DNA from: Candidatus Krumholzibacteriota bacterium
GTDB lineage: Bacteria > Krumholzibacteriota > Krumholzibacteriia > JAJRXK01
Length of the DNA stretch: 55,787 bases
Direction: 5' to 3'
NCBI GenBank assembly: GCA_024276305.1
Contig: JAJRXK010000068.1
Location: 1-55,787 of the forward strand
Position 1 is the stretch's first letter. The number at the start of each line of letters is the position of its first letter. Shown piece after piece: positions 20,992-36,989 of the stretch. Under the pieces are notes generated by a model that made no database searches, had not been told where the DNA came from, and saw only the letters and a program-made list of their open reading frames with translations. A program made the translations under genes and the position numbers.

Positions 20992-22467
20992 TCAGAGCCC
21001 CCCTCCGACCGCGCGAGACAGCTGATTGCGCAATTTGAGAATGTTGATCTGCGCATCCACCAGATCACGTCGGGCCTGGGCCAGATTCACCTGGGCGGTG
21101 ATCACGTCGAGCGATGTGCCCGCGCCCACCCGGAAGCGCTCGGTCGCCAGCCGCAAGTCCTCTTGGGATTGTTCCACCGTGACCGACGACACCTCGTGGC
21201 TTTCGATGGCCTCGACCAAGTTGTTCCGCAACTGCACGATCTCGAGTTCCACATCGAGTTGCTTCTGCCGGAGGTCGTATTCCGCTTTCCGACGATTCGC
21301 CACCGCCCGACGCGTTTGGGCCTTGGTCTGGAATCGATCGAAGATATTCCACTGACCCTGGATCCCCCAGGTATAGGAAGTGTTCTCGGTCGCACCGAAT
21401 CGGAAAGGAGTCTCGGCCTTGTTGCGCGCGGTATTGGCGAAGACCTCGATGGAGGGCCAATAGCCCGCCCGCGCGGTGGTCACCGCGGCCCGACTCGCCT
21501 CCAGACTCAGCCGGGCCGCGGCCAGGTCTCGGCGTCGCTCCGTCGCCCGGGCGAGGAGAGCCTCCAGATCCGGCGCAATCTCGTGAGTAACCTCGTCCAT
21601 CTCCGCCTGGATCTCGAAGTGCCTCGCCTGGCGCAGTCCCATCGCATGGGCCAGAGCGGCGAAGGCATTGCGCTCGCCATTTCGTTCTCGCACGGTATCG
21701 AGTTTGGTCTGCTGATGTCGCACCTTCGCCTGCAAGACATCACTGCGCGTGCTGATCCCCAGCTCGAAGTAGGTCTGGGCCCGTTCCAATTCCTGACGCG
21801 CGAGTTCCTCGGCGTCGATGGCCACCTTCACCCGCTGCTTGGCGCCCACGAGGTCGAAGAAGGCATTGGTCACTTCCTCCCGGACCACCGTGGCCTGATA
21901 CTCCTCCGTGGCCACCGAGGCCGAAAGAGCGGCATTTGCCCGGTTGCGCTCCGAGAATCGCGAGAAGCCGCTGAACACCGTCCAGTTGGTCTGCAGGGTC
22001 TGCCCCGAAAAGGTCTGAAGAATCGTAGAATCTTCGGTGCGGCCGGGCACCGGAGCGGTGAAGGTCTGGAAGGCCTGCTGGCCTCCGATGGTCAGGGGCA
22101 GCGCATTGCCCGACGCGTCCTCGAAGACCACCGGGGCCGAGAAGCGGTCGAAGACGAGCTGATCCTTGTCCGTCCGCTCCTGCCGCTGCCAAAAGCCCGT
22201 GAGGTTCAGATTGGGCAGGAAGGCCCCCAACGCAGCTCTTCGATCGACGGCCGCACTGCGCGTGTCCTCTTCGAGGCGGCCCAGGAGGTTGGAACTCAAG
22301 GTGGCCACCCGCACGCACTGGTCGAGGGTCACCGGCGCGTCGGAATAGAGCTTCTGCATTTCGGGGTGAAGAGCTTCCAGGCGATCCGAGAGCTGCGCCT
22401 GGCTGGAGGTCGCCAGTGCTGCACTACTGATCAGCGACCACACAATGAGACGGCGAAATGAAACCAT
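20992..22467 (-). CDS. TolC-family outer-membrane efflux protein
   Basis: A 491-residue protein with a signal peptide (SLISSAALATSSQAQ). It has the long alternating helical repeats of TolC/OEP proteins, for example the duplicated patterns around LRNNLVEAIESHEVSSVTVEQSQ and AQVNLAQARRDLVDAQINIL. It would form the outer-membrane exit duct of a tripartite efflux pump or type I secretion system. No adaptor or inner-membrane pump gene is next to it, so its partners lie elsewhere. The ATG start has AGGA 6 bases upstream. It follows the tonB terminator. Confidence 0.93.
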   Translation of the reverse strand: MVSFRRLIVWSLISSAALATSSQAQLSDRLEALHPEMQKLYSDAPVTLDQCVRVATLSSNLLGRLEEDTRSAAVDRRAALGAFLPNLNLTGFWQRQERTDKDQLVFDRFSAPVVFEDASGNALPLTIGGQQAFQTFTAPVPGRTEDSTILQTFSGQTLQTNWTVFSGFSRFSERNRANAALSASVATEEYQATVVREEVTNAFFDLVGAKQRVKVAIDAEELARQELERAQTYFELGISTRSDVLQAKVRHQQTKLDTVRERNGERNAFAALAHAMGLRQARHFEIQAEMDEVTHEIAPDLEALLARATERRRDLAAARLSLEASRAAVTTARAGYWPSIEVFANTARNKAETPFRFGATENTSYTWGIQGQWNIFDRFQTKAQTRRAVANRRKAEYDLRQKQLDVELEIVQLRNNLVEAIESHEVSSVTVEQSQEDLRLATERFRVGAGTSLDVITAQVNLAQARRDLVDAQINILKLRNQLSRAVGGGL

Positions 22468-22597: not shown

Positions 22598-22628
22598 AAA
22601 AAAGCCGAGGCCCGGTGAGACCTCGGCC
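22598..22628 (-). terminator. Intrinsic terminator after tonB
   Basis: On the minus strand GCCGAGG and CCTCGGC arms (22627-22621 and 22610-22604) close a 10-base loop and are followed by TTTTTT (22603-22598). It sits 23 bases past the tonB stop. The rest of 22468-22597 holds only a weak possible promoter for tolC (TTGTGG, 17 bases, TAACAT), which I do not count. Confidence 0.85.
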
Positions 22629-22651: not shown

Positions 22652-23320
22652 CTAGAAGAGGGTGAAGGTGTAGGGAAGGGTCACCCAGACCTCCACCGGG
22701 ACATCACGCTGCTTGCCCGGAGTGAAGACCACTCTTCTTGCCGCGGCCAGGGCCGCGCTGTCGAGAGCGCTGTGCACGCTCTGAGAGACCCGTGCGTCCT
22801 TCACCCGACCATCGGTCCCCACCAGCACATCGACCCGAACCGTTCCCTCCAGACCCGCCTCCCGGGCGAACTCCGAATACTGCGGAGGAAACCACTGCAC
22901 GATGGTCGGCTTGGTATCGAAGGCCACGAAGCCATTCCCCGATCCCCCGGCACCTCCGGTAGGGAGCGAGTTGAAGTCGGCAAAGTCCTCCACCAGGGTA
23001 TCCGCGATCTCGACGTCGTCCTCGACCTCGGCATCGGGAGCGGCCTCGATCGGCACCTGCGGTTTGGGCAGCTCTTCCGGAGGAGGCGGGATGTCCACCG
23101 CATCGGGAATGTCCATCACCTCGATGGTGTCTTCCTTCAGGGTGTAAGGAGTGATCACGAGCTCGGGACTGAAGAGAAACACCAGGGTGAAGATCACGAA
23201 GGACACCAGCAGAGCCCAACGCATGTATACGGGATAACGCGCCTTGAAACGGGCGTTCTCCGTCGCCAGGGCTGCGGCCCGCCACCCGGCCGTATCGGTT
23301 ACGTGCGTCGACCCGGACAT
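22652..23320 (-). CDS. tonB: TonB-family energy transducer
   Basis: A 222-residue protein with a cytoplasmic leader and one membrane anchor near residues 33-52 (ALLVSFVIFTLVFLF). A Pro-rich periplasmic linker (DIPPPPEELPKPQVPIEAAP) and a C-terminal TonB domain follow (residues ~140-222; REAGLEGTVRVDVLVGTDG, VFTPGKQRDVPVEVWVTLPY). It passes energy from ExbB/ExbD to TonB-dependent receptors; the receptor at 30695-33712 is an obvious client. AGGAGATCC precedes ATG 23320. It lies 7 bases after the second exbD. Confidence 0.94.
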   Translation of the reverse strand: MSGSTHVTDTAGWRAAALATENARFKARYPVYMRWALLVSFVIFTLVFLFSPELVITPYTLKEDTIEVMDIPDAVDIPPPPEELPKPQVPIEAAPDAEVEDDVEIADTLVEDFADFNSLPTGGAGGSGNGFVAFDTKPTIVQWFPPQYSEFAREAGLEGTVRVDVLVGTDGRVKDARVSQSVHSALDSAALAAARRVVFTPGKQRDVPVEVWVTLPYTFTLF

Positions 23321-23327
23321 GGATCTC

Positions 23328-23747
23328 CTAGTACTTGACTTGGCCGCTCTCGACCTTGTTGTTGAACGAGATGCGAACGGCGCTGACCTTCTTGAGTTCT
23401 TCCATGATGTCGTTCATCACTTCGTAATCCGTGTGAACGTCGGTCTCGAAAGCGACGATGTTACTGGGATTCTGCTTCATCTTGGTCACCATCAACTGCG
23501 CCACCTGGGGCGCCTGCATGAGAGCATCGTCGACCGAGATCCTCCCATTGGCATCGACGTAGACCCTGGAAATGTCGTCTCGCTTCACTTCCAGACCACT
23601 CTCCGCACGAGGCAATTCGACCGGCAAACCGTCCTCGGTCTTGAAGACCGTCGTCACCATGAAGAAGATGAGCAGAAGGAAGACAATGTCCCCCATCGAC
23701 GCGGTGGGAATCGAATTCGTTCCCTTGATGTTCTTCTCGAACTTCAT
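23328..23747 (-). CDS. exbD: ExbD/TolR-family protein (second copy)
   Basis: A 139-residue protein with one transmembrane helix carrying the conserved membrane Asp in SMGDIVFLLLIFFMV, followed by a periplasmic domain with the YVDANGRISVDD-type pattern. It should form the proton-conducting ring partner of ExbB. The start at 23747 (MKFEKNIKG) fits the family N-terminus. Two exbD genes in a row are common in FCB-type bacteria and probably make a mixed ExbD dimer. Confidence 0.94.
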   Translation of the reverse strand: MKFEKNIKGTNSIPTASMGDIVFLLLIFFMVTTVFKTEDGLPVELPRAESGLEVKRDDISRVYVDANGRISVDDALMQAPQVAQLMVTKMKQNPSNIVAFETDVHTDYEVMNDIMEELKKVSAVRISFNNKVESGQVKY

Positions 23748-23755
23748 CCTCGCCC

Positions 23756-24175
23756 CTACTCTTCCTTCATCTTGATCGAGACCTTGCGGCACTTGGCCAA
23801 ACGCACTTCGTCGAGCACCGCCGCAAACACGCCATAGTCGGACTTGGGATGATTGCTGAGCATCACGATGAGCTTGGGATTCTCCGCGAGCCGGCGCTCG
23901 AGCTCCCGCTGGATCGCATTCACCCGCATGGGCCGCCGATCGACAGTAATGATGTTGTTGTCGTCGATTTCGATATTGGTGACATCCGACTCCTTCACCT
24001 TGATCGAATCGTCTTGGTTTTCCTGGGCCGCGGGCAGGGCGAAGGGCATCCCGATATCCTGCTGGAAGACCGTGACCACCATGAAGTAGATGAGCAACAG
24101 GAAGACGATGTCCGAGATACTGGACATGTTCATCTCTTCCTGTGCTTTCGACACGCGCCGAATCTTGACGGCCAT
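23756..24175 (-). CDS. exbD: ExbD/TolR-family protein (first copy)
   Basis: A 139-residue ExbD with the membrane helix SISDIVFLLLIYFMVV carrying the conserved Asp. The periplasmic domain includes IIPVD-like and NPKLIVMLSNHPKSDYG segments. It differs clearly from the second copy, so this is an old duplication rather than a recent one. GAGAGGTGAG precedes the ATG. It lies between exbB and the second exbD with short gaps of 36 and 8 bases. Confidence 0.94.
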   Translation of the reverse strand: MAVKIRRVSKAQEEMNMSSISDIVFLLLIYFMVVTVFQQDIGMPFALPAAQENQDDSIKVKESDVTNIEIDDNNIITVDRRPMRVNAIQRELERRLAENPKLIVMLSNHPKSDYGVFAAVLDEVRLAKCRKVSIKMKEE

Positions 24176-24211: not shown

Positions 24212-25075
24212 CTAGTTGCCTCCGAGCTGCGTCAGCTCCTCGACCAGTTCGGCCGAGGTCTCTTCCATCTCGATGATGAAGCGGTCGATGATCGAGAGGA
24301 AGGCACTGTGACCCAAGCTGGCCGGAATCGCGACCACCAGGCCGGTCGCGGTGGTGATCAGAGCCTCCGAGATCCCGCTGGCCACGAGCTTCGCATTCAC
24401 ATTGTCGGCATTGGCAATGGCCTCGAAGGCCCGGATCATTCCGGATACGGTCCCCAGAAAGCCGAGCAGCGGCGCCACATTGGCCACCGAGGCCAAGGCC
24501 ACGAGTCCCCGCTCGAGGAAGGCCATTTCGATGGTGCCCGAAGTCTCGATCGCCTTTTCCACCGCGGAGGCGCCGCGGTCGGCCCGCAACAGACCGCTGT
24601 GCAGAATGGCAGCAATGGGTCCCCGGGTCCGCTCACAGACCTGGGCGGCCTCGGTCACGCCCTCGGATCGGAGAGTGGTGATCACGCTGCCGATGAGACG
24701 ACGCGTGTTGGTGCGGGCCCGTGCGAGGGTGAACCCTCGCTCCAAGATGATCGCCAAGCCGACGATCGCCGCGGCCAACAGGAACCACATGAAGTTTCCA
24801 CCGGCGATGAAGAGCTGGCCCGCGCCGCTCTGCCCGATCATGGTGGTCTCCAACCAGCCCATGAGACCCTCGGCCGGCTCCTCGACCTTCACCAATTCGT
24901 CCACGGAATCGGAAGTGGACCAGGCCAGGGAGTCCGAGGTGTTCATGACGCCTTCGATGTTGAGTTCGTCATCGACCTGAACTTCGTCCTGCGCCATAGC
25001 CGGAGCAGTGAAGAGTGCCAGCAACGTCAGGATTCCGAAGAAGCGAGCGCTCTGAAACAGACCTTTGCGAGCCAT
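24212..25075 (-). CDS. exbB: ExbB/MotA/TolQ proton-channel family protein with signal peptide
   Basis: A 287-residue protein. Residues 1-28 are a signal peptide (LLALFTAPAMAQ), followed by an acidic periplasmic stretch of about 55 residues that E. coli ExbB lacks. The channel domain follows, with three membrane helices (FMWFLLAAAIVGLAIILERG; VANVAPLLGFLGTVSGMI; LITTATGLVVAIPASLGHS). The start at ATG 25075 is chosen because it gives a proper signal peptide. A strong promoter lies at 25242-25271. It works with the two ExbD and TonB downstream. Confidence 0.94.
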   Translation of the reverse strand: MARKGLFQSARFFGILTLLALFTAPAMAQDEVQVDDELNIEGVMNTSDSLAWSTSDSVDELVKVEEPAEGLMGWLETTMIGQSGAGQLFIAGGNFMWFLLAAAIVGLAIILERGFTLARARTNTRRLIGSVITTLRSEGVTEAAQVCERTRGPIAAILHSGLLRADRGASAVEKAIETSGTIEMAFLERGLVALASVANVAPLLGFLGTVSGMIRAFEAIANADNVNAKLVASGISEALITTATGLVVAIPASLGHSAFLSIIDRFIIEMEETSAELVEELTQLGGN

Positions 25076-25241
25076 GGCAGGTCTCGTCCTTTCGCGGGAA
25101 GAAAACCCGATCGCATCGCCGACCGGATGAAACGTACACACAGAGAGAGGGCCTGCGGGCCCTGGATTCTCCGTCAAGATCTCGCTCGAAAATGGCTCAG
25201 GATCGCCCCGAACGGTGCCGTTTCGAGCACAAACAGGCGGA

Positions 25242-25271
25242 AGTATAGCCACGGCCTTCGCGCAGTGTCAA
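25242..25271 (-). promoter_or_regulatory. Strong sigma70-type promoter for exbB-exbD-exbD-tonB
   Basis: On the minus strand TTGACA (25271-25266), 18-base spacer, TATACT (25247-25242). Transcription would begin near 25235, giving a leader of about 160 bases. The stretch 25272-25354, up to the stop of the upstream GWxTD gene, shows no clear terminator. Confidence 0.8.
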
Positions 25272-25354: not shown

Positions 25355-26845
25355 TCAGCGGCGGGTGGCCACGTTGGAGTACTCCAGACGGTAGGAGCCG
25401 TCTCCCGTCCGATCGACGAAGAGAAAGCGATAGCCAATGTTCTCGGACCAGTTCTCGACCTCGTCGAAGAGTGGATCCCCGTTGAAGTCGTACTCCCAGA
25501 GCTCGAAACTCCCCTCGCTTCCCACTCTTCCGCGGAGACGCCGGCGCTCGCGGGAAGCGATTTGATCGCGCTCCGTGGCCCGAGCTCCGCCTCCCAGGGC
25601 GTCATCCTTCGAGGCCTGCTCTCGCGCGGTCACTCCCTCGAACTCGATCTGGTAGCGATCATGGACCCGGGTGATGGCGGACTCGAGATCATCGTCGTTG
25701 CTGGGCAGAACCCTCACATCGCGATCCTTGGGCGGTCCCAGACGGACATAGGTCCGCCCCCGATCGGTCAAGGGGCCGGGCAACAGCGATTCCCCGAAGA
25801 AGCGCCAGGCGAAGGCCATGCGCTCCCGGAAACGATCGTAGACCTCATTGCGGCTGGTCCCGGGGGTGGGATCGTGCCCTTCCCAGAAGTCCGCGAGCAT
25901 CGCGGTCTGGGCGGCCCGGGGCAGCTTCTGGAAGCGGTCGAGGGTTTCGTCGTCGAAGAGCAACTTCGCATCGAGGAGCAGATCGCCGCCCGCATCTGCG
26001 AAGCGTCCCATCTTCCAGACCACGGTGAACTCGTACTCCCGGGGTGATTCCTCCTGGATCCATGTCGGCCTCAGGCGCAGGACATAGTTTCCCTCGGGAA
26101 AGGTCGCCAACGGAAGACGGTAGAGACGAGCCTCCACTTCCCCCCGGCCCTCGAATCGCAGCGTCTGCCGATCCATTCCCCCGTAGACCGGATCGAGAAC
26201 CTCCACTTCGAGAGTTCGCGCCACGCCGGTCGGTGTTCCTCGAATCTCGAAATAGGCATCCAGGGTATCCTGGACCACCCCGTAGAGGCGCTCCGGGTTG
26301 GGAAGAGATGCGTCCGCGGCGCCCAGGCGGAACTCGGGATCGCTCATGGTCGGGGTCGAGGCTGCGACCGGAACTCGAAGGACGCCGTTGGCGGTGGCGT
26401 GAATCCGGCGGCGGCGTCCCTCCCGCGAAGCCTGGCGATCGGTGACTTCCACGGTGACCGCCCAATTCCCCGCTCCGATCCGCAGCGGGATCTCGATCAG
26501 CTCGAAGCGTTGAGAACTCTGGGCCACCTCGAGAGTGGGAGCCTGGAACTCGTAGACCTGGGTGGTGTCGACCGCGACCATCCCCTCGCGTGCCACTTTC
26601 AACCGCAATTCGACCTCCGCCTGGAGCGGATGACCGTAGGCCGGCCGGAATCGCATCTGGTGATGATCGAGACGAAGAGTGAAATCGACCCTCGTGGTCT
26701 CCCCCTCCTGGGGGAAGACCGGCATGTCAGCCACGAACTCGAAGTCGCCCTGTCCCGCCAGGGGAGACCTCAGGCCCGCCTGGGCCGGAGAGACCGCAGC
26801 GAGAAGCAGCAGGCCCGGAAGGATGCAGGCTCGAGTGGACTTCAT
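25355..26845 (-). CDS. GWxTD-domain secreted protein
   Basis: A 496-residue protein with a Sec signal peptide (LPGLLLLAAVSPAQAG). A beta-rich N-terminal two-thirds comes next. The GWxTD domain starts near residue 319 (FWEGHDPTPGTSRNEV) with PLTDRGRTYVRLGPPKD and ends in FELWEYDFNG and YRFLFVDRTGDGSYRLEY. A charged insert of about 60 residues splits the domain. Unlike the copy at 19518-20855 it has no lipobox. It follows the PorV-like gene by 118 bases and precedes the exbB promoter, so it ends the receptor operon. Function unknown. Confidence 0.85.
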   Translation of the reverse strand: MKSTRACILPGLLLLAAVSPAQAGLRSPLAGQGDFEFVADMPVFPQEGETTRVDFTLRLDHHQMRFRPAYGHPLQAEVELRLKVAREGMVAVDTTQVYEFQAPTLEVAQSSQRFELIEIPLRIGAGNWAVTVEVTDRQASREGRRRRIHATANGVLRVPVAASTPTMSDPEFRLGAADASLPNPERLYGVVQDTLDAYFEIRGTPTGVARTLEVEVLDPVYGGMDRQTLRFEGRGEVEARLYRLPLATFPEGNYVLRLRPTWIQEESPREYEFTVVWKMGRFADAGGDLLLDAKLLFDDETLDRFQKLPRAAQTAMLADFWEGHDPTPGTSRNEVYDRFRERMAFAWRFFGESLLPGPLTDRGRTYVRLGPPKDRDVRVLPSNDDDLESAITRVHDRYQIEFEGVTAREQASKDDALGGGARATERDQIASRERRRLRGRVGSEGSFELWEYDFNGDPLFDEVENWSENIGYRFLFVDRTGDGSYRLEYSNVATRR

Positions 26846-26903
26846 GGTCAGGACCTTTCTCCGAGGAGAGCCGGGGGGTGATGCGCGGTGGCCCCAACCA
26901 CAG

Positions 26904-26929
26904 CAGCCGACCCCATCCGAGGTCGGCTG
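26904..26929 (-). terminator. Hairpin between the PorV-like and GWxTD genes
   Basis: CAGCCGACC and GGTCGGCTG form a 9-bp stem around an 8-base loop, 34 bases past the PorV-like gene stop. The following minus-strand sequence is CTGTGGTTGGGG, not a clean T run, so partial termination or mRNA protection is more likely than full stop. Confidence 0.5.
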
Positions 26930-26963
26930 TCGCGGCCGTGAGCGCTCCGATGGGACGAGGCGA

Positions 26964-27917
26964 TCAGTATGCGAAGGACACGGAGACTCGGTGCACGCCT
27001 TCGAGATCCGTCATGTCCACCCAGCTGTAGTCGAGGTTGACCCAGCTCCTCGCTCCGGTATTCACCCGGAACCCGGCGCCGGCAGCCATCCCGTCGGTAT
27101 CGTAGTTCAGGTTGTATCCGCCCCGGAGGAAGAAGCGATTGTCCAACTGATACTCGACTCCGAAATTCGCTCGCTCGGCATTGTCCACGGGGTGCTGGAA
27201 CTCCGAGGAGGCAATGACCTTCTGCCGCCCGGTTCGAATCGGCTCGAATGCGAACCCGACCTTGAACATGGTGGGCAAGCGGGCCGGCCGCTCGTCGAAT
27301 TGCACTTCACTCCCCAGGCTCGTGATCGACATCCCGATCTTCATGCCCCGGATCCCGATCCGGTAGAGGATCCCCACATCGGCAAACATCGAGTTCACCG
27401 AGAAGTCCGCGAGTCCCAGATGGAGATAGGAGAAGGTGATGCCCGCCGAGAACTTGTCGGTGAAGAAGCGCGAGTAGGTCAGACCCAGGGTGCTCATCCC
27501 CGAATCGAATTGGCGTCCCGTTCCCTCCTGCTCCCGCGCGGTCCGCTCGATCATGGGATCCATCCAGAGCGCCCGGGCACTGAAAGCCAGTGTTCCGGGA
27601 ATACTCCGCGGGTTGAAGACATAAGCCACATGACTCAGCTTGATGTCCGCGGGCCACTGGGTCTGGCTGATCGCGAGCTGACTACCACGCACCCCTACAA
27701 TCCCTGCCGGATTCCAATACACAGCTTCCGCACCGTCGCCGATCGCGGTGAATGCGGAGCCCATCCCCGTGGCGCGAGCCGAGGGACCGATCTTGAGGAA
27801 CTGGGCCCCGAAGGTACCCACCTTCTCGAAGATCTCCGCCGCATTCGCCGGTGCCAGAGCACCCGCGAGAATGCCGATCGTCAACACGGCAGCCGGAACA
27901 ATCTTACGCAGCATCAT
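26964..27917 (-). CDS. PorV/PorQ-family outer-membrane barrel protein
   Basis: A 317-residue protein with a signal peptide (ILAGALAPANAAE). The family signature FLKIGPSARATGMGSAFTAIGDGAEAVYWNPAG is near residues 40-72, followed by repeated amphipathic beta strands. In Bacteroidota PorV is a T9SS component that shuttles substrates with a C-terminal sorting domain to the surface; PorQ/UPF0164 relatives are less defined. The start ATG 27917 is chosen from two adjacent ATGs because GGAGG lies 7 bases upstream. Its position just after a gene with a FlgD/T9SS-like tail suggests the two act together; this is an inference. Confidence 0.87.
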   Translation of the reverse strand: MMLRKIVPAAVLTIGILAGALAPANAAEIFEKVGTFGAQFLKIGPSARATGMGSAFTAIGDGAEAVYWNPAGIVGVRGSQLAISQTQWPADIKLSHVAYVFNPRSIPGTLAFSARALWMDPMIERTAREQEGTGRQFDSGMSTLGLTYSRFFTDKFSAGITFSYLHLGLADFSVNSMFADVGILYRIGIRGMKIGMSITSLGSEVQFDERPARLPTMFKVGFAFEPIRTGRQKVIASSEFQHPVDNAERANFGVEYQLDNRFFLRGGYNLNYDTDGMAAGAGFRVNTGARSWVNLDYSWVDMTDLEGVHRVSVSFAY

Positions 27918-27983
27918 CGAAGAACCTCCGCTCACATGCGAGCGTCTGCGGACCCGCGGGCCCGTCCTTTCGAGCGACGAACC

Positions 27984-30692
27984 CTAGCGAACGACCACGA
28001 ATCGACCGACCACTCGGTCGAAAGCGCTGTCGTTCGACTCGACAGAAAACAGATAGATACCGCTGACCACTTCCTGCCCATTCCGGGACACCAAGTTCCA
28101 GAAGGCAGAGCCATTCCCATTCGTGCCATCATGCTCAACGGTCTGCACCAGATCTCCGGCCAGAGTGAAGATCTTGACCGTATTCCGCGCCCGCGGAAGA
28201 TTCGTGAACATCACACGAACCCCCGTGGGGTCATCTCCATCCGGATTCAACTGGGAGAAATCCGCGAGCGACTCTCGAGTCGCCGGATTCGGCACCACGT
28301 AGACATCCTGCCCCAAGCGATCCCGTTCCTCCGCGGTCTGCGCGTCCGAAGTCGGGATCGCAAAGGCAAAGTTGCTCTGGGGATCGCCAGCCAAACCGGG
28401 ACCCACCGCCTTGGCTCCGTCCGGCACCTTCTCCGCGGTGAAATCCGAAGCGGTCACCGAGTAGAAGTAGTAGATCCCGTTGTGCACGGTTTGGTCAACG
28501 TACTCGTAGAATCTCACGCCGGTCTGATCCCAGTAGAAGGTGTCCAGGGCGGCGTAGTTGCCCTCCCAATTCTGCAACTCGGGGAACTTCAGACCGATCG
28601 GGGTGATCTCCCCGTTGGCCCCGAAGTAGCGCACGAAGAGAGCGGGATCGATCGTCGGCGAGAGGAAGGAGAACTCCGGATCGGCCAGAATGTCCTTCAT
28701 CAACTCGGCACCGTCCGCCAGACGAATCGCCTCTTCCGAGCCCGGGCGCAGCTGCTTGGGGACATAGCTGATGACGTCGAGACCGGTGTTCGCCCCCAGC
28801 GGGAGATTCTGCACCACGGTGTCGTTGCCGATCTCTCGGGTGTCCTCGAAGAAGTCGACTTTGTCGAATTCCGCAATCAGCTTCCAGAGCTTGGACTCGG
28901 GTCCGTTCTCGATCGAACTGCCGAAGGGCCGGTCCCACCCATCCGCGCGCCAGATCTTGTAGCTCTCGAAATCGATCTCCTGCAATCGGACATCGGGAAT
29001 CAACTGACTGATGTTGTCGAAGAAGACATGCACCCGTCCATTGGTCTCCCAGAGTCTCATGTGCGGTGCGGGCGGCGCCAGACCCACGAGCCAGGGGACT
29101 TGGAACTCCTTGCCTCCCACTCCCGTGCATCCCGCCAGCTCTTCCAGCGCGAGTCCGGTGCTCTCGAGGTTGCAGGATTCGTTGCCACGGCGGGCCTCGA
29201 AATCACAATCGAGGTCGACGTAGATGCAACCATCTTCATCGAGATCCGCCGCCGAGATCGGAGTCGGAGGATTGGGACCCTGTAGAACCGTACTGTCCAG
29301 AATGCAATCCTGGAAGATCTCGAAGATCGCAGTGGGGGTATCGAAGTCGTCCTGACAGATCTTGGTCTCCCACCCGTTGATCCCCGTCGAAGGATCGATG
29401 TCTCGATCGAAGTAGGCCCCGTAATAGGTGAGCGCCGCCTCCGCCGCGTTGCGGAGCATGGGGTCGAGGCCCGCGCCGACCACGAAGGCCGCCTGAATCA
29501 CCAGGGTCTGTCCGGGATCGAGAGGGTTGAAGGGGCCCGAGCCCATCAGGAAGCGAAAATCGTTCTTCTTCCCATCGAGGAACAGAGCTGGCGTCTGGTC
29601 GATCTCGATCCGCGACAAGAGCTCGTAGCGCTCCGCATCGTTGGTCGGGTCCCCCCCGCGCTCGAAGGGCTGATTGCCGCTGAAGGCCTGGAAGGTCGTG
29701 ATCCCAACTTTCGGTGGAGCCCTCTCTCCCGACGCATCGACGGGATGGTTCAAGAACAACATCCCGAAGAAGCCCGGTGATTGCCCCCCATCGCCGTCCG
29801 CATCGTACATCGCTCCCACCGACAGGGGCACGACCGAGTTGTCCAGAGCCCGGACATTTCGCCGCGCGAAGGTCACCAGATCGTCTTCCGCGATCCCGGA
29901 TCCACCGCGAGGGCCCACATCGCAATCCGCGAAGATACCCAAGTAGACATCCTGGAGGGCGGAAACCCCGATGTTGGTGATCTCGAACTGAAAGCCGACG
30001 AAATCGTCGACGTTCTCGTTCTCCCACTGGAAGCTCTGTTGGAGAACTTGGATGTTGAGCGGATCGTGATCCGGGAAGAGCTCCTCGGCCAAGGCAGTGT
30101 TGTCCCGCATCACGGTGCTGAAGTGCTGATTGCTGATGGCCGCGAAATCCTCGTCGATGAGGCCATCCCCATCATCGTCTACGGCGTTGAGGGGATCCTC
30201 GTTGAACAGACCGTCCCCGTCGTCGTCCTCACCGGGATCGGGATAGCGCGCCCCTCCAACCGCCCCCTGGAAGGTCTCGTAGATCGTATCGAGGGGATCA
30301 TCGGGATTCGCCAGGATCTCGGGCGTGAACTGCCCCGTACTCACCAAGGGCACGCCATTCTTGACGGCGCCGATCCAAACTCCAGCCGCCCACAGATAGT
30401 CCACGCCGCTGCCGGCCGGCCACATCGCCGAGGGCGCATCGGAGAAGGTGGCCTGTCGACTGGGCTGCGAACCGATGAGTCCCCAATTGGTGATGTTGAC
30501 CTGGAGCTCACCCACGTTGTGGACGAACTCGCCCTTCAGAGCGAACTCCCCATGACTGTCCTTCGAAAGGATCAAATCGATGGGTTCGGAACCCTTGTAT
30601 TCGGCATGCGCCGCCGGTATCCCAAGGACCAGCACGGCGATTGCGCTCCACAGGAACGGAAAGCGGGTCATTCTTGTCTCCCTCGCTTTCAT
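27984..30692 (-). CDS. Large secreted protein with Ca-binding-like repeats and FlgD/T9SS-like C-terminal domain
   Basis: A 902-residue protein with a signal peptide of about 30 residues (FLWSAIAVLVLGIPAAHA). Around residues 170-200 are two acidic DDDGDGL-type repeats that resemble thrombospondin-3/EF-like calcium sites. The last ~65 residues (RNTVKIFTLAGDLVQTV, then WNLVSRNGQEVVSGIYLFSV) match the FlgD Ig-like/T9SS sorting-tail pattern seen in FCB bacteria. The start ATG 30692 lies 2 bases after the receptor stop with GGAGG 8 bases upstream, so it is coupled to the receptor gene. It is probably a surface or exported partner of the receptor. The substrate is unknown. Confidence 0.8.
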   Translation of the reverse strand: MKARETRMTRFPFLWSAIAVLVLGIPAAHAEYKGSEPIDLILSKDSHGEFALKGEFVHNVGELQVNITNWGLIGSQPSRQATFSDAPSAMWPAGSGVDYLWAAGVWIGAVKNGVPLVSTGQFTPEILANPDDPLDTIYETFQGAVGGARYPDPGEDDDGDGLFNEDPLNAVDDDGDGLIDEDFAAISNQHFSTVMRDNTALAEELFPDHDPLNIQVLQQSFQWENENVDDFVGFQFEITNIGVSALQDVYLGIFADCDVGPRGGSGIAEDDLVTFARRNVRALDNSVVPLSVGAMYDADGDGGQSPGFFGMLFLNHPVDASGERAPPKVGITTFQAFSGNQPFERGGDPTNDAERYELLSRIEIDQTPALFLDGKKNDFRFLMGSGPFNPLDPGQTLVIQAAFVVGAGLDPMLRNAAEAALTYYGAYFDRDIDPSTGINGWETKICQDDFDTPTAIFEIFQDCILDSTVLQGPNPPTPISAADLDEDGCIYVDLDCDFEARRGNESCNLESTGLALEELAGCTGVGGKEFQVPWLVGLAPPAPHMRLWETNGRVHVFFDNISQLIPDVRLQEIDFESYKIWRADGWDRPFGSSIENGPESKLWKLIAEFDKVDFFEDTREIGNDTVVQNLPLGANTGLDVISYVPKQLRPGSEEAIRLADGAELMKDILADPEFSFLSPTIDPALFVRYFGANGEITPIGLKFPELQNWEGNYAALDTFYWDQTGVRFYEYVDQTVHNGIYYFYSVTASDFTAEKVPDGAKAVGPGLAGDPQSNFAFAIPTSDAQTAEERDRLGQDVYVVPNPATRESLADFSQLNPDGDDPTGVRVMFTNLPRARNTVKIFTLAGDLVQTVEHDGTNGNGSAFWNLVSRNGQEVVSGIYLFSVESNDSAFDRVVGRFVVVR

Positions 30693-30694
30693 GA

Positions 30695-33600
30695 TCAGAA
30701 CCTCCAGCCCAGGCCGAGTCGGAATAGTCGATGTTGACTGAAGACCCGGGGGTCATTGATCGGAACGAAGTCGTCTCTTGCATCACCGTCGACATCCGCG
30801 AGGTAGGCGCCGCCGAACTTTCCCGTCTCGGTGAGATAGGAGAGGCCCGCGTTCTGCGCGAGGATGGAACCCGGCGCCAACCCGGGCTGAATCCGGGCCA
30901 CACCATCCTGATTCAACAGGTTCAGGCCTTGAAGGTAGAGAGTGAGGCTCTGCCCGTAGACATTCACATTCCGCTCCGCCTGAATGCGCAGGTCGAACTC
31001 GGCAGGCAGCCGCTCGCTGTTCTCGAGCAGTGGATCCTGCCGCCGCTCGAATCGGAAGAAGGGCGTCCACGGGAACCCACTCCCGTAGTCGAAGACCAGC
31101 GATGCCGCCCACGCCCCCTGCTCGGCCAAGCGCAATTGCATGGCGACGCTGTGACGTTGATCCCAGTCCAGCGGGAGCTCCTGATTGGGAAGGAACTCCA
31201 ACCCATTGGGGTTCGTTCCGAACTGCTGATCCGACGCCACGCCGTCCGCGAAGGCATAGGTGTAGGCGATGTCGAATGCCCACCGATTGTGGAAACGACG
31301 TTCGAGAGTCAGCTCGACTCCCCGAGAGTTGCCATAGGCCCGATTGACATAGCGGTTGAGGGTGTTTCCCGTGGCCTCATCGGTGATTTGCGTCGCGGAC
31401 ACCAAGCCGAAGATGTCACGGTTGTAGACCGCGAATTGGAGCGCGAGAAAGTCGTTGAACTGGTGCTTGATCCCGGTCTGGTACTGAATCGTGGTCATCT
31501 CGTCGAGATTCGGATTCCCCAGGGTCAAGTTGTTGCCCACCGGATCCTGACTCGCGAAGAGAACGTCACGCCCCGGGAACTGGACGAATCGTCCGTAGTG
31601 AAAGTTGAACCCATCCCGCTCGGTGATCGGGAAGGCGAAGCCGAGCCGAGGACTGAACTGATGCTTGTACTTGAACACATTCGCATCGAGTTCCTCGCTG
31701 GACAGAATCACCTGACCCGCGCTTCCGGGACTGAACATGTCCCAGCGGAATCCTCCATTGATGACCATGCCCTCGTACTCCCACCGGTCCTGGAGGTAGA
31801 ACGAAGCCTCGGGGTTGTAGGAGTGGAAGATGTTCCGGGCCGCGCCCTGCTGCACCGCTCCAGTGAAACGGTTGATGGTGTCGATTCCTGGCGATGAGAG
31901 CAGTCTACGACGCAGATCGTTGTAGTCGATCCGCAGGCCCATCTTCATCTTGTGGCCTTCATAACGATTGCTCGTGATATCGAAACGCGCCGAGTACTGC
32001 TTGGTGTTCTGATCGTTGTAGACCGGCCAATCGCTCCCATCGGTGACGAAGAAGGGGTTGTCCGGATCCGTCGTGTAGTCGCGGTTGAGATCGTACTGTT
32101 GGCTGAGCCCGCCGAAGGGCCCCGGACTGTCGATGCCGCCATGAAGGAAGTCGACCGGCAACTTGCTGTCGCTCACCGTCTGGAGATTGTCGAATTCCAG
32201 ACGCGCCAACTTCAACTCGTAGAAGGTGTCGTCGTTGATCGTCTGACGCCACACGAGCTTGGTCTGACTCGAGAACGAGGTCGACTGGGGACCCTGGTTC
32301 GCCGCGTTGAAGGCAACGTAGCTGGAGTCTTCCTCCTCCGTCGAGAACAGGCTCTGATCGTAGCGAGCGCCCACGAATACCGGCTGCGCAATGGCCAAAC
32401 GAATCTCGCCGCGAATGTCGCGCATCTGAATGGTCGGAGTGGGCTGACGCTGACTGCTGCTCGCCCCGGGCACCAGCACCGCCTGAGTCACCGCATTGCT
32501 GCTGAGATTCTCCACCCAGGGGCCATAGTAGAAGGTGCCATAACGCCCGCCGAATTCCAGACCATCGCCGGTCTGCTCCAACAGCGGCAATCGGACCAGC
32601 TGCCGGGTGTATCCCTGCACATTCCAATTGGGCAGGAATGCTTCGGTCCGGGTGTAGCTCCCGATGAACTCGGCGGTCAGCTTGTGATCCTGGTCGAAGG
32701 TATAGGCCAGCTTGAGCGAGCCTTTGACGTCATTGACCTGGCGACGCCGAAACTTGAAGAGTTGCTGTCCCAGGAGCTCGACTTTGGTCTCCGGGCGATC
32801 CGCGGAGTTGAAGTTCTCCTGATCCGCAAAGCGAAAGTCCCCGGAAATGAAGTAGGTGAGCTTGTCGACGAAGGACGGGCCACCGAATCCCAGCTCGAGG
32901 CGGTCGTAATTGGTGAAGGTTCGGTCTTGGCGGCCGAAGTCGTCGGTCGTGAACCGGGCGTTGAACTCGAACTTCTCGGGATTCCCCTCTTTGGTCTGAA
33001 TGTCCACCACCCCGGAAAGGGCGTTCCCGTACTCCGGATCCTGTCCACCGGTCACGGTCTGGATATTCGCCACCGAGAAGGTACTCACACTCAGTGCGCC
33101 GCCACCGAGGGGATCATCCACGGCGACACCATCGACGCGGAAGGAAATCTCTCCACTACGGCCACCACGAACGTGGAGCTCGCCGTTGCGCGAGACGACC
33201 CCCGCCTGTCTCGAAACCGCCTCTTCCACGGTGTCGACCGCGTAGTCCGTCAGATCCTCATTGGTGATGGTATAAGATGTCTCGGTGTCCTTCACTTCGA
33301 CCATGACCGACCGACCGGTCACCTGGAATTCTTCGAAGGTCTTCACCACCGTGACTTCGAGGTCGAAGTTCAGAGTCACCGTCTGTCCTGCAGTCACCGT
33401 TACCGGCAACTCCACCGGCTTGTAACCCAAATAGAGAGCCTTGATCGTGTAATCGCCCGCCGGCACGCCTCGCAAGAAGTACTTCCCGCCGCCGATGGAC
33501 ATCGCGCCCCATACCGCAGACTTGTTCGTCGTGCTGGTCAACACCACGTTCGCATAGTCGAGCCGCTCACCGGTCTCCACATTGCGCACCGTACCGTTGA

Positions 33601-33712
33601 TGTCGCCGACGCCCTGAGCCCACGCTCCACTCGGCATCCACACCAACGTGCACACCGTCACCAACACCGACAAGACAGTGCACAATGCACCGGACCCAAT
33701 GCTCTTGGGCAT
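30695..33712 (-). CDS. TonB-dependent receptor with N-terminal carboxypeptidase-regulatory-like domain
   Basis: A 1,005-residue outer-membrane receptor. A signal peptide (to about residue 32, AWA|Q) is followed by a CarboxypepD_reg-like domain (GDINGTVRNVETGERLDYANVVL, GVPAGDYTIKALYLGYKP). A plug domain follows (EEAVSRQAGVVSRNGELHVRGGRSGEISFRVDGV; IQTVTGGQDPEYGNALSGVVDIQTKEG). Then a long barrel ends in the Phe-terminal strand FRLGLGWRF expected for BAM insertion. This is a SusC-like/OmpA-TBDR architecture. The start ATG 33712 has AAGGAG 7 bases upstream. A consensus promoter is at 34042-34070. The substrate cannot be told; no SusD is adjacent. Confidence 0.93.
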   Translation of the reverse strand: MPKSIGSGALCTVLSVLVTVCTLVWMPSGAWAQGVGDINGTVRNVETGERLDYANVVLTSTTNKSAVWGAMSIGGGKYFLRGVPAGDYTIKALYLGYKPVELPVTVTAGQTVTLNFDLEVTVVKTFEEFQVTGRSVMVEVKDTETSYTITNEDLTDYAVDTVEEAVSRQAGVVSRNGELHVRGGRSGEISFRVDGVAVDDPLGGGALSVSTFSVANIQTVTGGQDPEYGNALSGVVDIQTKEGNPEKFEFNARFTTDDFGRQDRTFTNYDRLELGFGGPSFVDKLTYFISGDFRFADQENFNSADRPETKVELLGQQLFKFRRRQVNDVKGSLKLAYTFDQDHKLTAEFIGSYTRTEAFLPNWNVQGYTRQLVRLPLLEQTGDGLEFGGRYGTFYYGPWVENLSSNAVTQAVLVPGASSSQRQPTPTIQMRDIRGEIRLAIAQPVFVGARYDQSLFSTEEEDSSYVAFNAANQGPQSTSFSSQTKLVWRQTINDDTFYELKLARLEFDNLQTVSDSKLPVDFLHGGIDSPGPFGGLSQQYDLNRDYTTDPDNPFFVTDGSDWPVYNDQNTKQYSARFDITSNRYEGHKMKMGLRIDYNDLRRRLLSSPGIDTINRFTGAVQQGAARNIFHSYNPEASFYLQDRWEYEGMVINGGFRWDMFSPGSAGQVILSSEELDANVFKYKHQFSPRLGFAFPITERDGFNFHYGRFVQFPGRDVLFASQDPVGNNLTLGNPNLDEMTTIQYQTGIKHQFNDFLALQFAVYNRDIFGLVSATQITDEATGNTLNRYVNRAYGNSRGVELTLERRFHNRWAFDIAYTYAFADGVASDQQFGTNPNGLEFLPNQELPLDWDQRHSVAMQLRLAEQGAWAASLVFDYGSGFPWTPFFRFERRQDPLLENSERLPAEFDLRIQAERNVNVYGQSLTLYLQGLNLLNQDGVARIQPGLAPGSILAQNAGLSYLTETGKFGGAYLADVDGDARDDFVPINDPRVFSQHRLFRLGLGWRF

Positions 33713-34041: not shown

Positions 34042-34070
34042 AATATATAGATCGCAAAAATGGCTGTCAA
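34042..34070 (-). promoter_or_regulatory. Near-consensus sigma70-type promoter for the receptor operon
   Basis: On the minus strand TTGACA (34070-34065), a 17-base spacer rich in T, and TATATT (34047-34042). Transcription would begin near 34035. It is one of the strongest-looking promoters in the window and sits downstream of the peptide-transporter genes. Confidence 0.8.
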
Positions 34071-34149: not shown

Positions 34150-34944
34150 TCAACCACCAAGGCGGGGGACGCTTTCGAGCAGAGCTCGAGTCGCTGCGCT
34201 GCGAGGCGACGAGACCAGGTCTTCCGCCAGCCCCTCCTCCACCACTCGGCCCCGGTCCATGACCGCAATGCGGTGGCTCAGATGCTGGACCACCGCGAGG
34301 TCGTGAGCGATGAACAGATAGCTCACTCCGAACTCCAACTGAATGTCCTGCAAGAGGTTGAGAACCTGAGCCTGCACGCTCACATCGAGGGCGGAGACCG
34401 GCTCATCGGCCACCACCAAGCGAGGCCGGGGTGCCAAGGCCCGCGCGATTCCCAACCTCTGTCGCTGCCCCCCGCTGAATTCGTGGGGGTAGCGGCGAGC
34501 GTGATCCGCCTCGAGGCCCACCCTCTCGAGCAACCCCACCACCCGGTCCTGGCGATCGCGAGGACTGCCGATCCCGTGGACCTCCAGGGCCTCGGCGATG
34601 GCATCGCCCACCGTCATCCGAGGGTTGAGGCTGCCGTAGGGATCTTGGAAGACGATCTGAAGATTCCGTCGGAAGCGACGGAGCGCCTTCCCCCGCAGGG
34701 CCAGAAGGTCCTCGCCCGCAAGGGTGATCCGGCCCGAAGTGGGTTCGATGAGCCGCAGGATACACCGACCGATGGTGGTCTTGCCGCAACCCGATGGCCC
34801 CACGAGACCCAGAGTTTCGCCCACCCCGATGGTGAAACTGACTCCATCGACCGCGACCGTCTCCCCTGCCCTACGCCCCAGAATTCCCCGTCGCAACGCA
34901 AAGACCTTGCGCAGATCCCGTACCTCCAGCAGCGCTTCAGGCAT
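34150..34944 (-). CDS. Peptide/nickel-type ABC transporter ATP-binding protein (OppF-like)
   Basis: A 264-residue ATPase. Walker A is GPSGCGKTT, the Q-loop is in [16 protein letters not shown], the signature is [16 protein letters not shown], Walker B is [13 protein letters not shown] and the H-loop is FIAHDLAVV. The start ATG 34944 has GGAGG 7 bases upstream and overlaps the OppD-like stop by 8 bases. The usual C-terminal oligopeptide extension with a Cys-rich motif is missing, so this copy is shorter than the typical ~320 residues. It powers import with the OppD-like ATPase. Confidence 0.93.
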
Positions 34945-35953
34945 CGGGCCACCTCCCTGCCTCCCGCACCCTCTCCGCCTCGAAGCAGGCCACCGCATGC
35001 CCCGCCCCCAAGCTCTGCATTTCCGGGCGCTCCTGGCCACAGCGGGCCGTCGCGAAGGGGCATCGAGGGTGGAAGGCGCAGCCCTGGGGACGATGGGCGG
35101 GATCGGGCACACTGCCCTCGATCAGAGACAAGCGCCGGCGCCGATCCCCCAGACGGGGGCGGCAGGCGAAGAGACCCAGAGTGTAGGGATGGGCCGCTTC
35201 GGCCACGAGCTGCGCGGTCTTGGCGGACTCCACGATCCGGCCGGAGTACATCACCAGAATCCGATTCGATCGCTGGGAGACCAATGCCAAGTCGTGAGTG
35301 ATGTGCAGGAGACTCATCGCCCGCTCTTCCTGCAAACGCTCCAGGAGATCGAGGATCCGTGCCTGCACCGTGACGTCCAACGCGGTGGTCGGTTCGTCGG
35401 CCAGAAGCAGATCCGGAGAGCAGGCGATCGCCATCGCAATCATCACCCGCTGCCGCATTCCCCCCGAGAGCTCGTGGGGATATTGACCCGCCCGCCGGGC
35501 GGGGTGATCCATTCCCACCTCTTCCAATAGGGAGATCGCCCGATCCCGGGCCTGCTGCCGCGAGAGCCCCAGATGGACCTGCATTCCCTCGGCGATTTGA
35601 TCGCCACATTGGAAGACCGGATTCAACGAGGTCATGGGCTCCTGGAAGACCATCGAAATGCGCCGGCCTCTCCACTTGCGCAGCCGATCGATGTCCATCG
35701 CCAGCAGATCCTCTCCCCGGAAAAGCGCCCGTCCCCGACGAATGTGGGCGGCACCTCGAGGGTGGAGTCGAAGGAGGGCCAGCGCAGTGAGGCTCTTTCC
35801 ACAACCGGATTCCCCTACCACTCCCACCGATTCCCGGGATCCGACCTCGAAACTCACGCCGTCCACCGGCGTCGACACCATGCCATCGCGGGGAATCTCG
35901 ACCACCAAGTCTTCGACTCGCAACAACGGCCCCCCTCCTTGGTCCGCGGTCAT
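34937..35953 (-). CDS. Peptide/nickel-type ABC transporter ATP-binding protein (OppD-like)
   Basis: A 338-residue ATPase. Walker A is [10 protein letters not shown], the Q-loop is in [12 protein letters not shown], the signature is [16 protein letters not shown], Walker B is [12 protein letters not shown] and the H-loop is HITHDLALV. The C-terminal oligopeptide-transporter region includes [14 protein letters not shown], the Cys-rich motif that binds an iron-sulfur cluster in some homologues. The start ATG 35953 has GGGAGG 6 bases upstream and follows the OppC-like stop by one base. Confidence 0.95.
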
Positions 35954-35954
35954 C

Positions 35955-36989
35955 TCAATCCTCCCGCGGTCCGAGTTCCCCCAGGCGCCGGTCGTAGGCA
36001 TCTCGCAATCCATCGCCCAAGAGGTTGTAACCCACCACCGTCACCACGATCGCCAATCCGGGAAAGGTCGAAACCCACCACGCATCGAGCATGGTGTGCC
36101 GTCCACCGCGGATCAGCATACCCCAACTGACATTGGGGTCGGTGATCCCCAGACCCAAGAAGCTCAAGAAGCTCTCCGCCAGAATCGTATTGCCCACTCG
36201 CAGTGCCGCCGCCGCCACGATGGGCGCGACGGCCGCCGGTAGAACATGCTTCCAAAGCAGTTGGAGTGGGGGCACGCCCACCGTGCGGGCCGCCAGAACA
36301 TAGTCCTGCTCGCGGATCTGCAACACGCTCCCCCGGACGAGCCTCGCCACCCCCATCCAACCGGTGGTTCCCAGGACCACCACGATCCAGAAGGGACTCG
36401 GAGTGGTGAGCGCGGCCAGAAGCAGGACCAAGAAGATCCGCGGAAAGGCCAGGACCAGGTCGGTGAAACGCATGAGCAGAGCGTCGACCACTCCCCCCGA
36501 CCACCCCGCCGCGGCGCCGAGGGTGGTCCCGATCACCACACTCAAGATCACGCTCAGGGTCGCCACTGCCAAGGTCACCCGTGCTCCGTGGAGAACCCGG
36601 CTGTAGAGATCTCGTCCCAACAAGTCCGTCCCCATCCAGTGATCCCACGAAGGAGCGAGGTAGCGCTCGGTCACCGTATCTCCGAGCTCCACCGGTGAAT
36701 GCGAGGTCAGCAGAGGCGCGAAGACGGCGGCGGCATGAAGGAGGATCACCAGGAAGAGACCCGCCCGAGCCGTGGGCTCGGTCAGGTGCGCATAGCCTGC
36801 TTTCAGCCACCGGGCTCCGGCGCCCTTCCACGCCCCCACCGCCATCACCAAGGCCAGGACCACCAACAGCCGAGCTCCCCCACCCCGCTCCCCGGACAGA
36901 ATCGCCCATGCCATCCGGGGGCGCAGGACCAGTCCCACCGACGGAACGGTCAAGAGGACTCGAGTGAGAAAGAGCAAGGGGGCCATCAC
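35955..36989 (-). CDS. Peptide/nickel-type ABC transporter permease (OppC-like)
   Basis: A 344-residue inner-membrane permease. After an N-terminal region with extra hydrophobic segments (residues 1-60) comes the OppC_N-type stretch (LTSHSPVELGD), then GTDLLGRDLYSRVLHGARVTL, typical of OppC/DppC. The EAA loop is near EQDYVLAARTVGVPPLQLLWKHVLP. GTG 36989 directly follows the oppB stop; the next codon is ATG. The N-terminal extra hydrophobic region is longer than usual. Confidence 0.94.
   Translation of the reverse strand: MMAPLLFLTRVLLTVPSVGLVLRPRMAWAILSGERGGGARLLVVLALVMAVGAWKGAGARWLKAGYAHLTEPTARAGLFLVILLHAAAVFAPLLTSHSPVELGDTVTERYLAPSWDHWMGTDLLGRDLYSRVLHGARVTLAVATLSVILSVVIGTTLGAAAGWSGGVVDALLMRFTDLVLAFPRIFLVLLLAALTTPSPFWIVVVLGTTGWMGVARLVRGSVLQIREQDYVLAARTVGVPPLQLLWKHVLPAAVAPIVAAAALRVGNTILAESFLSFLGLGITDPNVSWGMLIRGGRHTMLDAWWVSTFPGLAIVVTVVGYNLLGDGLRDAYDRRLGELGPRED

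Follow-up and report, generated by a model that had tools for sequence, protein, structure and literature searches.

A conserved Krumholzibacteriota gene block that may pair a TonB-dependent receptor with a type IX-delivered surface protein and its own PorV-family barrel

Does a TonB-dependent receptor that is encoded directly beside a large secreted protein with a type IX secretion system (T9SS)-like tail, and close to an outer-membrane barrel of the PorV/PorQ family, belong with these neighbours to a single surface machine? We address this question in a bacterium of the little-studied phylum Candidatus Krumholzibacteriota (assembly GCA_024276305.1; 3.55 Mb in 119 contigs), using a stretch of 55,787 nucleotides of contig JAJRXK010000068.1 (contig 53 of the genome), which we call the window and whose coordinates are used throughout. 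On its minus strand the receptor gene is followed by genes for a 902-amino-acid (aa) protein that bears the tail, for the barrel and for a GWxTD-domain protein, all four in the single direction and at the positions given by the original prediction, which was made from the sequence alone; ExbB, ExbD, ExbD and TonB genes come next. The prediction regarded the tail protein as possible T9SS cargo, the barrel as its shuttle and the whole as one dedicated uptake or surface-display module. Our analysis leads to a related reading, to which we give a probability of roughly one half: the block would serve TonB-dependent uptake throughout the class, and one of its products, a surface subunit delivered by the T9SS, would be held by a PorV/PorQ-like barrel of its own. 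Gene calls, including alternative starts, are those of our own codon-usage caller.

The block, from the receptor gene to a TolC-family gene, is conserved class-wide in Krumholzibacteriota relatives. Synteny was anchored on the barrel ortholog, which 36 of 37 relatives encode at an identity of at least 49% (the exception, G030, is 65% complete), while other barrels listed at E<=1e-20 have at most 37% identity. This yielded 37 loci, 36 from relatives plus L061, which were scored by distance rules. The receptor lies 5' of the barrel in 29 of the 30 loci with 3.5 kb visible (G026 is the exception), and the tail protein adjoins the barrel in 27 of 32, upstream in 26 and downstream in one. Of the remaining genes of the predicted order, GWxTD is present in 33/35 loci, ExbB in 32/33, ExbD in 29/32 and TonB in 25/30. 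The distance rules scored G003 as lacking GWxTD, ExbB, ExbD and TonB, yet all are present in its locus; in the G013 locus no GWxTD gene was seen. TolC is found in 31 of the 37 loci, and five of the six others end too soon, that of G015 not doing so. Two loci, L088 and L089 (G007 and G011), keep ExbB and TolC, and neither ExbD nor TonB was matched in the stretch that separates the two.

Promoter sites divide the block into two parts. In the 400 bp before the receptor gene a site scoring at least 10/12 is present in 23 of 26 loci, and before ExbB in 20 of 29, as compared with one in 121 for the tail protein (0/24), barrel (0/33), GWxTD (1/35) and TolC (0/29) genes together, and with 91 in 3000 random 400-bp stretches taken from the relative loci. 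For each gene this test covered 24-35 of the 37 loci, those in which the gene was called away from a contig end. From this distribution, the receptor-to-GWxTD genes behave as one transcription unit and those from ExbB onward as a second, in agreement with the prediction that ExbB, ExbD and TonB follow under a promoter of their own. Across the window region there are four promoter-like sites against 2.0 expected, two of them scoring 11/12; terminator-like sites number eight against 8.0 by chance, the same frequency as in shuffled sequence. The predicted 2-base gap between the receptor stop and the next gene holds if the latter starts at ATG 30692, which has GGAGG 8 bases upstream; ATG 30671 is also a possible start.

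The 902-aa protein is recognisable in profile searches by its last ~100 residues only. For the body of its family, no Pfam family and no PDB chain was found; by eye, the protein has a signal peptide without a lipobox, and Asp-rich repeats lie at aa ~155-183. The tail, ~104 residues when counted from just before a PNP motif, forms the extreme C-terminus and is the best conserved of ten regions of the protein (0.68 versus 0.32-0.64). A search of 80 genomes of the phylum, which represent a single class, found members of the family in every one. Two relatives that are Candidatus Krumholzibacteriota metagenome-assembled genomes have tail proteins 63% and 47% identical to that of the window. Scans of viral contigs with the tail alignment and with the whole protein gave no relatives. 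In one locus (L119 6550-17834, on contig 41 of G029) the family occurs in four tandem copies.

We compared the tails of this family with those of known T9SS proteins. The family search gave 52 matches, 49 of them at least 700 aa long; with the short L112 and L102 left out, the comparison comprised the window protein and 47 others. At E<=0.01 the PorZ model matches 48 of these 48 tails, the PorU model 41 and TIGR04183 38. As an isolated fragment, the window tail reaches 30.7 bits with the C-terminal domain (CTD) part of the PorZ model, 21.3 with TIGR04183 and 18.6 with the FlgD model. A profile-profile comparison of the family tails with classic tails gave 96.2%, and the best PDB sequence match of the tail family profile is the PorU CTD (E 0.0053). 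A three-sequence structure model of aa 716-902, weak at a mean pLDDT of 48.8, has seven strands in its last ~110 residues; a full-length AlphaFold2 model of the tail protein, also from three sequences, reached a pLDDT of 29.2 and was not used. In the structural comparison with VIA, which realigned 1,000 chains, the top row is the PorZ CTD (Z 7.9, rmsd 2.5, 85 residues, 29% identity), and the other 49 listed rows have identities of at most 19% at similar Z.

Two further properties of the tail can be set beside published CTDs. Type A CTDs carry a near-invariant lysine close to the C-terminus (PMC10994853). At the corresponding site, placed by eye, 38 family tails have lysine, nine arginine (the window tail among them) and one tyrosine, so that 47 of 48 have a basic residue there. 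The retained CTDs of PorZ and PorU are 96 and 108 residues long and cleaved ones 67-88 (PMC11285876), and the length of our tail is nearer to the retained ones.

The strongest sign that the family tail and classic tails have equal function is a natural tail swap. Fourteen paralogs in relatives share N-terminal body stretches with the tail protein (within ~aa 10-547) and end in a different tail; all 14 of the swapped tails match TIGR04183 at E<=0.01, the score being given for the first member only (32.4 bits against a cut-off of 23), and most contain PNPFN. The initial set had 16 homologs whose tail was different or unreadable; L148, with no usable C-terminus, and the short L102 open reading frame, which enters a masked stretch, were dropped from it. 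At the family level, these comparisons support a tail that is T9SS-CTD-like and not FlgD-only.

The barrel belongs to the PorV/PorQ family (NF033709 PorV_fam, 188.1 bits against a cut-off of 90), and its best PDB match is PorV (6h3i_F, E 5.3e-5). The barrel had been predicted as PorV/PorQ-like; this stands for the family and fails for PorV itself, with the PorV equivalog NF033710 giving 69.3 bits here versus 127.6 (of 250) for another barrel of the genome, encoded beside porU. This porU-side barrel, which has 183.4 bits with PorV_fam against the same cut-off and 59 with PorQ, matches PorV better than do the other six PorV-family proteins scanned in the genome. Five of the seven over-cut-off PorV-family genes are co-located with a tail protein that we judged T9SS-like (contigs 53, 2, 101, 96 and 112); the sixth adjoins porU, and the seventh, on contig 99, is neither by porU nor by a tail protein.

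A tail of this kind would have use for a T9SS, and core components of one are encoded in the genome. SprA, the translocon, scores 468.3 bits against a cut-off of 200, and PorU, the sortase, 448.7 against 420, each summed over one-frame pieces; the porU gene directly adjoins a PorV-family barrel gene, as described above. Over own, genus, family and class genomes, SprA was found in 38 of 38 at E<=0.001 and above the cut-off in 36, and in none of 14 control genomes; PorU exceeded its cut-off in 0 of the 14 controls. The genome has 63 TIGR04183 matches, 60 of them over the cut-off, and two of the 14 controls have a match. A T9SS is possibly present in other phyla of the Fibrobacteres-Chlorobi-Bacteroidetes (FCB) group (PMC11285876). 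According to the original prediction, a genome with no T9SS core gene and a tail matching FlgD_ig only would argue against T9SS export; since SprA and PorU are present and the tail family is not FlgD-only, that description does not apply here. The SprA gene (2279 aa) lies on contig 49 (L062 7723-14562) and porU on another contig; by eye, the SprA neighbours include two LptF/LptG-like permeases, and the downstream genes resemble rimP, nusA and infB.

The combination of receptor, tail protein and barrel occurs a second time in the genome. On contig 101 there are, in order, a tail protein (658 aa), a lipoprotein-like gene, a receptor, a barrel and a second lipoprotein-like gene, and the tail protein, receptor and barrel are homologs of the three in the window; genes resembling an ABC exporter by eye follow. 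Seven such loci in relatives (L149-L155), chosen for their matching barrel, have the receptor, barrel and both lipoprotein-like genes in 7/7 cases and the tail protein in 6/7. In trees from eight genomes the receptor and the tail protein split by set with support of 100/100 on both sides, and the barrel with 100/100 and 96/91; the tail-protein tree contains 15 rows instead of 16, as the G002 locus is without a second copy, and three long outgroup barrels are unsurely placed. The separate clades indicate that the trio has been inherited twice in parallel, and a single duplication of the entire trio would fit them without being proven by them. A third set, on contig 96 (L066 3353-17435), encodes in one direction a protein of 2249 aa whose tail is weakly T9SS-like (TIGR04183, 19.5 against 23), a PorV-family barrel, a tetratricopeptide repeat (TPR) protein, ExbB, ExbD, ExbD and TonB; no receptor is among the genes called between tail protein and TonB. 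As a candidate for PorW/SprE this TPR protein was rejected, its match being generic (107.2 bits against 250).

In the mechanism that we propose, the 902-aa protein would be made with a Sec signal and would cross the outer membrane via the SprA translocon, using its C-terminal Ig-like tail. The neighbouring PorV/PorQ-family barrel would then catch the protein and keep it beside the receptor with the tail uncleaved, in the style of PorZ on PorQ; such retention agrees with the data no less well than does a recycling shuttle, and the prediction had taken the barrel for a shuttle. Held at the surface, the protein may gather or gate the ligand. Asp-rich motifs can bind Ca2+, and those of the 902-aa protein suggest Ca2+-stabilised surface domains. 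The receptor would import the ligand with energy from ExbB-ExbD-ExbD-TonB, the GWxTD protein would be a secreted partner, and the Dpp-type ABC importer encoded upstream would move the product, possibly peptides, over the inner membrane. We infer export, retention, partnership with the receptor, the ligand and the roles of the GWxTD and Dpp proteins from sequence features.

Several results weigh against this uptake module with a barrel-held subunit. Scanned whole, the 902-aa protein is sub-threshold in both FlgD_ig (16.4 bits, cut-off 27) and TIGR04183 (15.4, cut-off 23), and its tail misses the latter cut-off even as a fragment; the FlgD/T9SS-like tail of the original prediction is therefore T9SS-like at the level of the family and below threshold in the window copy. 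The FlgD model also matches 30 of the 48 family tails at E<=0.01. Foldseek with the weak model of aa 716-902 placed flagellar FlgD in the first row and PorU after it, with no row under E 0.001, and the VIA rows that lie less than 1 Z unit off the top include unrelated Ig folds. The window barrel is below the cut-offs of the PorV equivalog (250) and of the PorQ equivalog NF033711 (73.8 bits against 220). Among the five tails by PorV-family genes, that on contig 2 alone reaches the TIGR04183 cut-off, and the listed TIGR04183 matches are within 3 kb of only one of the seven barrels. A statistic for barrel-tail adjacency (the 63 TIGR04183 hits placed at random; 5/7 within 3 kb, P about 2e-4) was not used, because four of the five tails are below the cut-off and the null is unmatched. 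For the receptor, no subfamily was over its cut-off among the profile models searched.

The conservation and the secretion machinery also have gaps that count against it. The tail protein is not beside the receptor-barrel pair in five of 32 loci (G012, G015, G022, G025 and G027), which come from families f6 and f8 and have members of the tail-protein family elsewhere in the genome or, in the case of G012, no more than a weak match, and it is apparently also not beside receptor and barrel in G019, near a contig end. The dedicated module that had been predicted is thus a class-wide block from which five relatives lack the tail protein. No TonB match was found in the block of G004, G008, G011 and G025. 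Finally, none of GldL, GldM and GldN was over its cut-off in the 38 genomes, with weak GldL matches in three; the same searches matched none of the 14 controls, a looser-E search for GldM matched one control below the cut-off, and since no control genome matched SprA, this result is no proof of absence. The idea of T9SS export is thus partly supported, by SprA and PorU and not by the Gld proteins, which were searched for without a positive control.

The features of the block and of its surroundings are collected in Table 1. The receptor is identified by TonB_dep_Rec_b-barrel (71.3 bits, cut-off 27), Plug (28.8, cut-off 23.9) and CarboxypepD_reg (57.7, cut-off 32.3), and the 496-aa protein belongs to the GWxTD family (TIGR04514, 57.8 bits against 28), with no Pfam family over its cut-off.

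Table 1. Coordinates of the genes and signals of the block in the window
Feature	Position	Strand	Description
Dpp/Opp-type ABC importer genes, 5' of receptor	34150..37954	minus	two ATPases, permease C, permease B
Sigma-70-like promoter 5' of receptor	34042..34070	minus	TTGACA-17-TATATT, 11/12
TonB-dependent receptor	30695..33712	minus	1005 aa from ATG; N-terminal carboxypeptidase-regulatory-like domain and plug
Large secreted tail protein	27984..30692	minus	902 aa
C-terminal tail domain of the 902-aa protein, aa ~796-902	27987..28307	minus	family profiles and model
PorV/PorQ-family outer-membrane barrel	26964..27935	minus	323 aa; NF033709
GWxTD-domain secreted protein	25355..26845	minus	496 aa; TIGR04514
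Sigma-70-like promoter 5' of ExbB	25242..25271	minus	TTGACA-18-TATACT, 11/12
ExbB/TolQ proton-channel protein	24212..25252	minus	open reading frame from GTG 25252; codon-usage caller prefers ATG 25075
ExbD 1	23756..24175	minus	PF02472, 85.6 bits
ExbD 2	23328..23792	minus	PF02472, 82.9 bits; codon-usage caller prefers start 23747
TonB	22652..23320	minus	TIGR01352, 60.3 bits against cut-off 27.1
Terminator-like hairpin and T run, 3' of TonB	22603..22628	minus	
TolC-family outer-membrane efflux protein	20992..22467	minus	PF02321, 181.2 bits; syntenic in relatives

The importer genes upstream of the receptor and the receptor itself have separate promoters. Within the importer, the ATPase at 34937-36013 was identified by Pfam, and the other genes were assigned by eye and by position. 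A homolog of the Dpp-type ATPase gene directly precedes the receptor in 20 of the 27 loci where this could be seen, and the seven loci without one come from families f3 and f7. The DppB-like permease (36990-37954, minus) spans two frames, 37214-37954 and 36990-37262, which means that the gene is broken or that the assembly has an error. Beyond TolC there is a second GWxTD protein (19518-20855, minus; TIGR04514, 73.3 bits), followed by NlpC/P60-SH3 and rhomboid-TPR proteins. A divergent pair on the plus strand (38177-41487) consists of a family-less 677-aa lipoprotein-like gene and a barrel with a sub-threshold PorV_fam score (31.2 against 90); L060 and L061 have, by eye, a look-alike of the 677-aa gene in an equivalent position. 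A TPR protein of the window (46571-50275) was considered as PorW/SprE and rejected as a generic TPR match (105.6 bits against a cut-off of 250).

How does the block compare with known systems? The PorZ-PorQ pair of the Porphyromonas gingivalis attachment complex is, like the pair proposed here, a T9SS surface protein that is held by a barrel and retains its CTD (PMC5562754), and PorZ is the model that the family tails match throughout and the CTD that tops the VIA list. PorZ serves in the delivery of lipopolysaccharide to the sortase (PMC8545088). In contrast, the window barrel is below the PorQ and PorV cut-offs, the 902-aa protein is without the PorZ body (PorZ model NF052228, 28.6 bits from its C-terminal part only, against 260), and its neighbours are a TonB receptor, ExbBD/TonB and GWxTD instead of porU. 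In Flavobacterium johnsoniae, type B CTD substrates and PorP/SprF barrels are encoded by adjacent genes and form specific pairs (PMC12618676), as may be the case here, whereas the window tail is type A/PorZ-like and its barrel of the PorV/PorQ family. The nearest parallel would thus be PorZ on PorQ in function, and type B tails with their cognate PorP/SprF in genetics.

Systems built around a TonB receptor offer a second comparison. A TonB receptor with a carboxypeptidase-like domain beside a large secreted protein is the anatomy of SusC-SusD, and the window shares it; unlike SusD, however, the window partner has a signal peptide that is lipobox-free by eye, a T9SS-like tail and a PorV-family barrel. 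An actual SusC/SusD pair was rejected, as the receptor matched no SusC/RagA model (TIGR04056) and the tail protein no SusD family at E<=0.1, and Pfam gave no SusD family among 20 tail-family members at E<=0.01. Fibrobacter succinogenes, an FCB relative with T9SS tails, has the same ExbB-ExbD-ExbD-TonB order in FSU_2400-2403 (PMC6851124). Its operon differs in being tied by the authors to cellodextrin uptake, with a MalA-like receptor not identified and PorV unmentioned in the text of that paper (PMC6851124). Since the PorV, PorQ, PorZ and SusCD models were each missed, we assign the block to none of these systems.

The 902-aa protein might instead be ordinary T9SS cargo, carried by the porU-side PorV and cleaved at its tail by PorU, and then anchored or released, with the block barrel serving the receptor in some other way. 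We consider this unlikely, although the best PorV match of the genome is indeed the porU-side barrel (NF033710, 127.6 bits), a single PorV is reported to serve all type A tails in Bacteroidota (PMC12618676), and receptor and barrel stay paired where the tail protein is missing. Against a general shuttle, the tail protein adjoins the block barrel in 27 of 32 loci and is again near a barrel in the second conserved set. Moreover, all 48 family tails are PorZ-like and the conservation of the tail is strong, whereas 12 cargo CTDs of P. gingivalis have no significant sequence similarity among them (PMC11285876).

Somewhat less likely again is a block with no T9SS link. Here the 902-aa protein would reside in the periplasm or the outer membrane and carry a FlgD-type Ig domain as a scaffold, and the barrel would be a FadL-like channel through which a hydrophobic ligand diffuses, beside an ordinary receptor. 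This would account for the sub-threshold FlgD_ig and TIGR04183 scores of the window protein, the FlgD matches of 30 of 48 family tails and the first place of FlgD in Foldseek, and the barrel does have a weak FadL/TodX match (25.5 bits against 29.7). Against it, the window tail scores higher with the PorZ model and TIGR04183 than with FlgD (30.7 and 21.3 versus 18.6), the swapped tails match TIGR04183 in 14 of 14 cases, and the barrel reaches 188.1 bits as a PorV/PorQ-family member in a genome that encodes SprA and PorU.

ExbBD and GldLM are related proton-driven motors. ExbB-ExbD-ExbD-TonB could thus power the T9SS instead of, or besides, the receptor, by pulling barrel-bound tail proteins from SprA in the stead of GldLM. 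We regard this as improbable, and the same holds for a combined form in which a Krumholzibacteriota T9SS without GldLM has ExbB-ExbD-ExbD-TonB drive both the surface display of the 902-aa protein and nutrient uptake. The idea draws on 38 SprA-matching genomes with no GldL, GldM or GldN over cut-off, and on contig 96, where these four genes follow those for a tail protein, a barrel and a TPR protein and no receptor gene was called between tail protein and TonB. However, the TonB of the block is accompanied by its standard partner, a TonB-dependent receptor; in the block, G007 and G011 have ExbB without an ExbD or TonB match, and G004, G008 and G025 are without a TonB match; the Gld searches lacked a positive control, and the match of the contig 96 TPR protein to PorW/SprE is generic. 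Least probable of all is a block that serves export or envelope biogenesis, with TolC and a MacB/LolD-like ABC ATPase in relatives and a receptor-like barrel that is no importer: an ABC ATPase match does come next, 3' of TolC, in 26 of the 31 relative TolC loci by our own count (the one scanned being most like MacB/LolD), TolC has no promoter site of at least 10/12 before it in any of 29 loci and ABC exporter-like genes follow the contig 101 set by eye, but TolC lies at least 125 bp from the preceding called gene in 29/29 loci, the window has a terminator-like hairpin between TonB and TolC and no ABC ATPase adjoining its TolC, and receptor and TonB are importer genes by family.

We thus favour, at the even odds given above, the TonB uptake module whose T9SS-delivered subunit would be held by its own barrel. 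In the open PMC literature, we found no paper that joins Krumholzibacteriota and type IX secretion and none that mentions GWxTD. We have seen no description of a tail protein of the type A/PorZ-like kind that is linked throughout a class to a PorV-family barrel of its own and to a TonB receptor, nor of the energy source of a T9SS in which GldL, GldM and GldN are undetected.

With its family in 80 of 80 genomes and a near-consensus promoter site, the tail protein is probably abundant and important for these bacteria. SprA without detected GldL, GldM or GldN raises the question of what powers their T9SS. In this phylum, particular type A-like tail proteins seem to have PorV-family barrels of their own, and these barrels seem tied to TonB receptors. 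Such dedicated barrels would extend the idea of the cognate shuttle, and the block would be a T9SS-built counterpart of SusCD.

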